Assembly (NCBI GenBank): GCA_009995455.1
Contig: JAACPJ010000002.1
Span: forward strand, 62,001 to 126,000
Source: a bacterium
Lineage (GTDB): Bacteria; Patescibacteriota; Gracilibacteria; UBA4473
Reading direction: 5' to 3'
Length of the DNA stretch: 64,000 bases
Each line of letters opens with the position of its first letter. Position 1 is the first letter of the stretch. The position numbers and the translations under genes were made by a program. Below the pieces are notes generated by a model. The model did no database searches. It was not told where the DNA came from and saw only the letters and a program-made list of their open reading frames with translations. Shown here in pieces: positions 57,465 through 59,077 of the stretch.

Positions 57465-57507
57465 AAAACTCAAAAAAACTAAATCATCAATTTTTAGATT
57501 TAGGAAG

Positions 57508-57531
57508 GAGGGGCGTCCGAAGACGCCCTCA
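57508..57531 (-). terminator. TTCG-capped hairpin at the end of the GC-rich cassette
   Basis: Minus strand: GGGCGTC-TTCG-GACGCCC, a UUCG tetraloop stem, following the 63-aa gene. T-poor tail, so termination is inferred. Confidence 0.6.
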
Positions 57532-57561
57532 CGTTTTCACGTGGTTCTCTCCAGTGGATGG

Positions 57562-57753
57562 TTATGCGGTTTCAAACAAAACGTTCGGACCATAGTCCAA
57601 ATCAATCCAAGAGTCTGCCGCCGTTGCCGGGACAATTGGGCTATTCGCCATCAGCTCTCTAAGCCACTCAGGCTCTTTTACTCTGCCAACCGAACCGTAA
57701 GTTGGGATGCTCGAGCCGCCGTTGCCGGCGGCGGGGTTGCTTGCCTGAGACAT
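57562..57753 (-). CDS. Small protein of the GC-rich cassette (63 aa)
   Basis: 63 residues. It is Gly/Ser/Pro/Ala-rich at the start, with SWIDLDYGPNVLFETA at the end and no hydrophobic helix. A clean GGAGG Shine-Dalgarno lies 8 bases before the ATG, inside the end of the preceding gene, with which it has a 3-base gap. Codon use is GC-rich. No family recognised; a short, soluble, possibly precursor-like peptide. Confidence 0.6.
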   Translation of the reverse strand: MSQASNPAAGNGGSSIPTYGSVGRVKEPEWLRELMANSPIVPATAADSWIDLDYGPNVLFETA

Positions 57754-57756
57754 GCC

Positions 57757-58167
57757 TCACGCCTCCATCATCAGTTCCGCGGGCGGAACTTCAGTCAGGA
57801 AGCCTTGGAAAGCCTCCGGTACCTGCGCACGTTGTGCGTAGGTCAATCCAGCCTGAACCCGAAGTTCAACCAGGGCCGCATCAACAGCCTGGCGAATTTG
57901 CGAGTGCGGAAAGGGCCCCATCTCGGAGTGATCAACAACAAGCAGGGCCTCATCTTCACGGCCAACAGCCGTGAGCGCATCGAGCGCTTTCAGGCGAACT
58001 GCCTCGTTCATGGCGGTAAAATCACCGCCGTTCATAGCCAGTTCACTGCGAAAGGGCTCCTCCCAGGCACCGTAACGCGTGGAGAGCGCGGCTTGCACTG
58101 CCTCGCAGATGGCGGTAAACGAAAGGGTAACTTTGCCAGCCTTCAGGCCTCTTACTTTATCAAACAA
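57757..58167 (-). CDS. GC-rich cassette protein 1 (136 aa)
   Basis: 136 residues from a TTG start at 58167, supported by an AGAGGA Shine-Dalgarno 7-9 bases upstream. KVTLSFTAICEAVQAAL near the N-terminus resembles a segment of the 98-aa protein 360 bases upstream, so the two may be distant paralogues. It is helical, acidic and lacks membrane segments. Codon use (CTG, GCC, CGC) is unlike the rest of the window. It has a promoter at about 58426-58452 (TTGAAA, 15-base spacer, TATAAT) and a ~250-base leader. Function unknown. Confidence 0.7.
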   Translation of the reverse strand: MFDKVRGLKAGKVTLSFTAICEAVQAALSTRYGAWEEPFRSELAMNGGDFTAMNEAVRLKALDALTAVGREDEALLVVDHSEMGPFPHSQIRQAVDAALVELRVQAGLTYAQRAQVPEAFQGFLTEVPPAELMMEA

Positions 58168-58425
58168 TGTGTAGTCCTCTTCTTTTTATAAGCCCCCACC
58201 CTGGGGACTTTTGATTTGCTTCCTCCCTGTCAGGAAAAAGCGCCAAATTATTAACCTTAATAACTCAGCGCTTTCTCCGTTTAGAAAAAAGAAATTAAAA
58301 GAGAAACATTAAAACAAAACAAAATTGATTTAACTTTATAACCAACGTGAAAGAACAACGAGGCTAAAGACTTTTGTTTCGCGTTGCGTACAGCAAACAA
58401 ACCAAAAAATGAATTTAGCGTTTCT
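58168..58425 (-). promoter_or_regulatory. Long structured leader of cassette gene 1
   Basis: Holds an interrupted palindrome at 58237-58274 (AAAGCGC, 4, TTATTAA, 2, TTAATAA, 4, GCGCTTT). It also holds a hairpin (AAGTCCCC/GGGGGCTT on the minus strand, near 58190-58212) immediately before the A-rich tract and the Shine-Dalgarno. Confidence 0.55.
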
Positions 58426-58452
58426 ATTATACACTATTTGACTTTTTTTCAA
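58426..58452 (-). promoter_or_regulatory. Promoter-like site of cassette gene 1
   Basis: TTGAAA and TATAAT with a short 15-base spacer on the minus strand. Confidence 0.45.
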
Positions 58453-58477
58453 ATTATTTTTACCAGCTTTGATTAAA

Positions 58478-58500
58478 GGGGCGCCGGTGAAGGCGCCCAC
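58478..58500 (-). terminator. GC hairpin after cassette gene 2
   Basis: Minus strand: GGGCGCC-TTCACC-GGCGCCC followed by CTTT. It mirrors the GGGCGTC hairpin that ends cassette unit 1. Confidence 0.6.
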
Positions 58501-58529
58501 TTAGTTAGTTTGTTCTTCAGTCAGAAGCT

Positions 58530-58826
58530 TTAGGCGTCAGCGAGCGCAGAATGCCGTTCGCGGTAATACTGAACGCACAAGGCCAAAAAAGCCATGAGCA
58601 CTTCATCCTCCGAGTCTTCAATCACGCCCAAGGCGTGTTGATAGGTTTCGGTTACTCTTGAATCGAGTTTACTGCGAACCGTTCTTTCAAGCGATTCATC
58701 ATCAGCAAGACTCTCTGGAAGCGCTTCACAAAGTGCTGTACACTCGAAATGCAGTTGCTTCCCCCCTCCAAAAGTGATGACCAATTGACCTGTTGAAGGA
58801 GTGGCAAAATTAATCGTTTCTGGCAT
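58530..58826 (-). CDS. GC-rich cassette protein 2 (98 aa)
   Basis: 98 residues with an AGGAGAG Shine-Dalgarno nine bases before the ATG. LHFECTALCEALPESL resembles the CEA segment of cassette protein 1. Acidic, helical, three Cys, no membrane segment. The leader carries two hairpins (TCTCTTACA/TGTAAGAGA at 58875-58896, and GCCC/GGGC next to an A-rich tract), the same plan as unit 1. Function unknown. Confidence 0.7.
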   Translation of the reverse strand: MPETINFATPSTGQLVITFGGGKQLHFECTALCEALPESLADDESLERTVRSKLDSRVTETYQHALGVIEDSEDEVLMAFLALCVQYYRERHSALADA

Positions 58827-58874
58827 TTAGACTTCTCTCCTGTATTTTTTTGTGCCCACTAAGGGGCATTAAAA

Positions 58875-58896
58875 TCTCTTACAGGAATGTAAGAGA
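58875..58896 (-). promoter_or_regulatory. Leader hairpin of cassette gene 2
   Basis: TCTCTTACA-GGAA-TGTAAGAGA, nine perfect pairs, about 50 bases upstream of the 58826 start. Confidence 0.5.
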
Positions 58897-59077
58897 CAAA
58901 CAAGGTTCTTTATATTTAAACCCTCTTCGCCTCTTACATAAATTTCAACCAAAAGTACCCAAAGAACAAACGCTAGAAATCGCCATCACAGTTTTGCCAA
59001 TTTCGCACTCTGAGATAAAAATATTTTTAGCGCCCTGTATTTATTCTAATTATTTTTTTCCGCAAATTTTTTCAATA

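Follow-up and report, generated by a model that had tools for sequence, protein, structure and literature searches.

How a streamlined bacterium that is poor in Shine-Dalgarno (SD) sites expresses genes from unrelated bacteria is the question raised by a small group of minus-strand ORFs in the window, i.e., the whole 64,000-nucleotide stretch analyzed here (bases 62001 to 126000 of the 386-kb contig C9, from a 1.32-Mb genome of the class Gracilibacteria that is 93% complete). A first-pass annotation had described three such ORFs, together with SD sites and hairpins, as two units of foreign-type composition that share a plan and carry their own expression signals, and this description was confirmed in the sequence. 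According to the ORF list, unit 1 contains a 98-amino-acid (aa) ORF (58530..58826, minus strand) with an ATG start and the SD sequence AGGAGAGA at 58841-58834. Unit 2 contains a 136-aa ORF with a TTG start (57757..58167, minus strand), followed by a 63-aa ORF (57562..57753, minus strand) that carries the conserved motif P(A/S)TAADSWID..YGP. We compared the window genome (G000) with two genomes of the same genus, G001 and G002, and with G010, which belongs to a different genus. The 136- and 63-aa proteins have orthologues in the sister species G002 (46% and 40% identical, respectively), and the codon-position differences between the two species (0.41/0.32/0.61) and a pN/pS of 0.50 to 0.54 both support coding of this pair. 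Since the two genes are conserved jointly as an operon, their products may act together, as this arrangement suggests. The putative coding status of the 98-aa ORF rests on its SD, boxA, and terminator context; its orthologue is absent at the G002 locus, and no database relatives were found.

The standard code reads the genes of the window genome. As a UGA separates the 136- and 63-aa frames, which lie in register on its two sides, a code in which UGA specifies glycine was also weighed. It was rejected, since the RNR gene and other genes run without interruption under the standard code and since the two frames do not share a register in the sister species. Elsewhere in the same class, a PH-like gene with seven in-frame TGA codons (G030, locus L072) points to a lineage that, unlike the window genome, reads UGA as sense.

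When GC3 was compared with that of 708 native genes (0.36 ± 0.047, maximum 0.519), the 136- and 63-aa ORFs were strong outliers (0.58 each), whereas the 98-aa ORF exhibited a mild shift that does not make it a clear outlier (0.43, z of 1.6). The claim that all three genes are GC rich thus held for the operon of unit 2 and failed for unit 1. The cassette as a whole is one of only two islands exceeding 0.58 GC in the 386-kb contig. All three ORFs are preceded by strong SD sites, with duplex energies of -7.9 (136 aa), -14.0 (63 aa), and -8.3 (98 aa) kcal/mol, relative to a native median of -0.3 kcal/mol; energies of -6 or below occur in 2.4% of 615 native genes at their called starts. A variant in which the best SD was picked from several start codons was dropped, as most of the resulting sites were spurious. 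Because the 16S rRNA tail reads ATCCCTCCTCATCC, anti-SD pairing is possible in this genome.

The feature reaches further upstream than had been stated, to about position 58970, where the boxA of the 98-aa unit lies. In unit 1 (all coordinates on the minus strand), a motif scan placed the boxA core GTTCTTT at 58961..58967, and the sequence then contains a leader hairpin (TCTCTTACATTCCTGTAAGAGA, 58875..58896) and a second small hairpin (TGCCCCTTAGTGGGCA, 58868-58853) ahead of the SD. Downstream of the ORF are the trailer AAGAACAAAC (58508..58517), which is the exact complement (10/10) of GTTTGTTCTT at the unit 1 boxA, and a terminator-like hairpin of the GGGCG type (GGGCGCCTTCACCGGCGCCC, 58479..58498). 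Unit 2 begins with a putative sigma70-like promoter (TTGAAA ... TATAAT, 58426..58452) that was recognized as a leader pattern match. Its boxA core, GTTCTTT (58350..58356), lies within AGCCTCGTTGTTCTTTCACGTTGGTTATA, a segment that is nearly invariant in the sister species by alignment and motif. There follow a long hairpin (GGAGAAAGCGC...GCGCTTTTTCC, 58233..58278) that is conserved in the two-species alignment and its consensus fold, the sequence GGGAGGA (58227-58221), a second leader hairpin (AAGTCCCC-AGGG-TGGGGGCTT, 58190..58210), an A-rich tract, and the SD sequence AGAGGA of the 136-aa ORF (58180-58175). The unit ends with a trailer strand (ATAACC ... AACCACGTGAAA, 57535..57566) complementary to the unit 2 boxA segment (score of 9.5) and with a second GGGCG-type terminator-like hairpin (GGGCGTCTTCGGACGCCC, 57511..57528). 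Between species, the boxA segment and the 46-nucleotide (nt) hairpin are the best conserved leader parts of the window unit. Likeness of the leader DNA to genomes outside the genus was dismissed as AT-rich noise, and Rfam contained no known RNA family for the region (the lowest E value, 0.13, belonged to a tmRNA fragment with 10.5 bits against a cutoff of 47).

A census of the genome for further units of this plan revealed 12 dispersed one- or two-gene units with 13 ORFs, two of the units being those of the window region. Units were found through the pattern GGGCG...CGCCC and then through a GC scan; the hairpin pattern alone is not enriched (16 occurrences versus 15 for the reversed control) and served only as a way in. 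On C9 (293.6 to 295.1 kb), the GC-rich, SD-led ORFs encode two small lipoproteins and HisI; contig C13 carries units for a putative zinc-binding protein of 121 aa, a 74-aa membrane protein, a 98-aa protein, NhaA, and a helix-turn-helix (HTH) regulator; and contig C11 has units for two secreted proteins. GC3 ranges from 0.54 to 0.75 in 12 of the 13 ORFs, the exception being the 98-aa gene of the window (0.43), and strong SD pairing is found in 12/13, versus 2.4% of the 615 native genes. The unit leaders are AT rich, at about 35% GC in the window, unlike the ORFs. The proposed search for this layout elsewhere was productive, with about ten more units in this genome and others in related genomes; a further 454 kb of the genome contained no additional clear units. 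At C9:293580-295059 (L097), the HisI gene, which has a boxA and an SD, lies beside the two small lipoprotein units and is surrounded by an imperfect inverted repeat; sequences complementary to the SD are present behind the terminators of these lipoprotein units.

Two features beyond those described by the first-pass annotation, a boxA and a 5'-3' complementarity, characterize the units. When all 6- to 8-mers were enumerated in the 12 unit leaders and in 346 native intergenic leaders, the top words were SD words and GTTCTTT/TGTTCTTT. GTTCTTT was present in 6 of the 12 unit leaders; the native leaders, 61 kb in total, contain it 10 times. The boxA core GHTCTTT occurred in all 12 unit leaders and in 30/346 native leaders (antisense strand, 4/12); since this expression was set after inspection of the leaders, the computed P value of 1e-12 overstates the evidence. 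GHTCTTT agrees with the known boxA consensus and with the rRNA leaders of the window genome, whose own 23S boxA (GGTTCTTTCACAAATCGG) resembles that of the window (TTGTTCTTTCACGTTGG), and the genome carries a nusB gene. boxA elements in mRNA leaders are known from suhB and other genes (PMC5725501).

Most units have, between the stop codon and the GC-rich hairpin, a stretch of 3' untranslated region complementary to their own boxA segment. The pairing partners are GTTTGTTCTT and AAGAACAAAC in the window 98-aa unit and ACATTTGGGTTCA and TGAACCCAAATGT in the HTH unit; the boxA-trailer match reads CAGATGGTTC in the 98-aa unit of C13, CGAGATCTT in the 74-aa unit, and TTTCACG(T)TGGTT in the 136- and 63-aa unit, whose G002 counterpart scores 11.5 over 27 columns. 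Across 15 units, scores of at least 8 were reached by 61% of own pairs versus 4.8% of swapped pairs, and permutation gave a P value of 5e-5 both by alignment and when the analysis was repeated with duplex energies. Native genes exhibited no excess complementarity (mean of 8.19 with their own versus 8.20 with a swapped partner). Four to five units had no convincing boxA-trailer pairing, namely, those for the 141-aa, 99-aa, NhaA, and 161-aa proteins and, within the strict search range, G010_113; downstream of the lipoprotein units, it is the SD, not the boxA, that has a complement. A blind scan of most of the genome for a boxA, its complement, and a GC hairpin returned six matches, only three of which were units. 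With respect to conservation of the pairing, the HTH orthologues of G000 and G002 are identical across the pairing segments, and the 136- and 63-aa orthologues and the G010 pair keep the pairing with changed sequence, although these events are few.

The same arrangement flanks the genome's own rRNAs. Immediately ahead of its terminator, the 16S unit has a trailer that complements AAGTTCTTTTTCATTTCGGACGCAA at 23/25 positions (1 of 300 shuffles was as good); in the 23S unit, the 23S-5S spacer pairs with the boxA segment along about 33 nt (score of 22, null maximum of 13). Formation of 30S subunits in Escherichia coli requires the leader-trailer helix, and boxA tethering has been proposed to aid assembly of this helix (PMC10250234). 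The units thus resemble pre-rRNA units, including those of their own genome, in having a boxA at the 5' edge of the leader strand and a complementary trailer before the unit end; in contrast to pre-rRNA, they are protein-coding mRNAs with SD sites, their complementary stretches are short (8 to 27 nt), and a GC-rich hairpin follows directly. With suhB-type mRNAs they share a boxA core in the leader, where NusB/S10 binding is expected. However, that study reported 0 to 7 putative targets per genome, near the start codon, and repression of suhB by the Nus complex (PMC5725501), whereas here 12 leaders of foreign-type genes carry the element, in most cases together with a 3' segment that matches it. 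Lambdoid nut sites (boxA/boxB) likewise lie in leaders of genes of foreign character, but in the present units no N-like protein or boxB was recognized and no phage genes were seen, and they comprise one or two genes with their own terminators. Integron gene cassettes are similar in that a recurring frame holds individual small genes of various origins, yet no attC-type site was seen here, each unit has its own leader, and the units lie alone or in twos in the chromosome with no array around them. We found no named system with such a layout, in agreement with the first-pass annotation, and no earlier report of the boxA and leader-trailer arrangement on mRNAs in the literature searched, which included few subscription papers.

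Taken together, these observations slightly favor a reading in which the window region comprises two of about a dozen autonomous units that place foreign-type genes on transcripts built to the pre-rRNA plan, with boxA antitermination and trailer pairing. From the sequence, we infer antitermination by NusB/S10, its end via trailer pairing, and stabilization or processing through closed ends. NusB and S10 would load on the boxA of the emerging leader and turn RNA polymerase into a fast form resistant to Rho, which could transcribe a GC-rich gene that fits the native expression pattern poorly. The SD would recruit ribosomes independently of the native start mode. Once made, the trailer would pair with the boxA segment, thereby stripping or closing off the antitermination complex and tying the 5' end to the 3' end; the intrinsic terminator would act after this pairing, and the closed ends may, as in pre-rRNA, stabilize the mRNA or guide how it is processed. 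If this reading is correct, bacteria would have in antitermination and leader-trailer pairing a general means of expressing horizontally acquired genes, and a boxA with a matching trailer could serve as a search signature.

The strongest competing explanation, which we consider unlikely though worth serious weight, is ordinary horizontal transfer of single genes from GC-rich donors with their own SD sites and terminators, the boxA-like words and the 5'-3' complementarity being coincidental or incidental. In its favor, the GC-rich codons, SD sites, and GGGCG hairpins look like those of a donor, a Leisingera (Roseobacteraceae) protein shares 68% identity with the HTH protein, and among plasmid sequences NhaA matches Paracoccus/Paracoccaceae best, at about 40%. 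Against transfer as the whole account stand the AT-rich leaders, the boxA in 12/12 units, the permutation result for the pairing, and the better conservation of the window leader blocks than of the coding part. Furthermore, the 320 bases upstream of the related HTH genes at the Leisingera and Phaeobacter loci contain no boxA core, and their flanks are unlike those of the unit, whereas the leader and trailer of the HTH unit are nearly identical in G000 and G002. Since the Leisingera and Phaeobacter loci lack the leader that G000 and G002 share, the unit frame seems, judging from this one gene, to have been acquired or to have evolved in the recipient lineage. Donor taxonomy is firm for the HTH gene only (Alphaproteobacteria) and does not extend to the window genes.

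The time of arrival also bears on these readings. In G002, the 136- and 63-aa orthologues adjoin the same PH-like protein and a signal peptidase, and the 98-aa gene is absent; in G001, the pair is absent beside the PH-like gene. The pS of the pair is near saturation (0.71 to 0.74), yet its GC3 is about 0.58 in both species. One lipoprotein unit likewise has a GC3 of 0.57/0.63 in two species, with proteins that align at 43%, and the HTH unit has one of 0.58/0.55, so that three units have counterparts in the sister species whose GC3 is still high with synonymous sites near saturation. The cassette had been regarded as recently acquired, a view contradicted by orthologues of matching composition beside the same neighbor, an outcome that the first-pass annotation had itself named as refuting. 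Such kept composition would be predicted by selection on composition or by repeated replacement from similar donors, not by amelioration after one recent transfer, and it would warn against taking GC-rich islands as recent arrivals.

These same values could mean that the units consist of native, fast-evolving genes whose origin is hardly foreign or not foreign at all; selection for a special mode of expression would then maintain their GC-rich codons and SD sites. This improbable explanation draws on a GC3 of 0.55 to 0.63 in both species despite a pS of 0.66 to 0.74, near saturation, and on the lack of relatives of the window proteins outside the genus in the collections searched; it is opposed by the HTH protein, which clearly belongs to an alphaproteobacterial family. 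An extension of the antitermination and pairing reading, to which we give equally little credence, is that the units form a system with which an SD-poor bacterium can express genes of foreign type through rRNA-like transcripts, selection maintaining the GC-rich codons and SD sites of these genes; at its far end, the closed transcripts could suit the ribosomes of a different cell, the bacterial host of a presumed epibiont.

Given that G001 and G010 carry different units beside the PH-like gene, the junction at this gene is a recurrent site for such units. G001 has a different GC-rich ORF there (listed at 224 aa, or about 201 aa when counted from the likely ATG) with its own GGGGCG hairpin, and in G010 the PH-like and RNR genes enclose two small units, in which the boxA flank and the 3' segment differ together. 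In the G010 pair (L077:3330-4490), 71-nt leader stretches are 90% identical and the ORFs (66 and 113 aa) are unrelated. Genes for a PhdYefM-like antitoxin (below the Pfam cutoff) and a ParE-type toxin adjoin the GC-rich unit of G001 at the same junction (L076:3249-3755). A genome with a cassette-capture system, in which the complementary 5' and 3' segments are ends recognized as folded DNA and the boxA is part of a recombination site, would fit the similar frames around unrelated ORFs in G010 and the finding that the window genome, G001, and G010 have different units next to the same PH-like gene. It is the least probable of these explanations, and against it, end sequences differ between units within one genome, no linked recombinase gene was seen, units occupy the same place in the sister species, and the 16S and 23S rRNAs are flanked by the same arrangement.

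Internal duplication, with the 98- and 136-aa proteins as paralogues, found no support in a single-pair BLAST comparison (E value of 0.049) or in hhalign (probability of 0.8%), and the predicted folds, albeit of low confidence, differ (all-alpha versus alpha/beta). A phage origin fared no better: PHROGs, IMG/VR contigs, phage records, and BFVD contained no significant match, and the donor of one other unit points to the Alphaproteobacteria. The three window proteins had nothing usable in Pfam, PHROGs, NCBIfam, PADLOC, or PDB sequences, for the 98-aa protein, searches of families, the PDB, viral proteins, and PADLOC gave no relative that could be used, and neither the window proteins nor the other orphan proteins tested had relatives in the collections searched, where none was detectable beyond the genus for the window proteins. 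A PADLOC match of the 98-aa protein (E value of 0.0099, 13 bits) and a Pfam match of the 63-aa protein (E value of 0.13) were weak and were treated as chance. AlphaFold2 models were weak (pLDDT of 62 and 74; mean of 62 for the 136-aa protein, which is predicted with low confidence to be all-helical), and Foldseek searches with them returned no significant match. The TAADSWID motif of the 63-aa protein (57562-57753) resembles GATAADSWIDIDGG in a PaaZ-like dehydrogenase stretch on an Acidimicrobiales contig, a match taken as probable chance. Elsewhere on C9 (339927-341084), an ORF with high GC3 and a boxA-like leader, whose sequence partly reads as N, is possibly a further unit.
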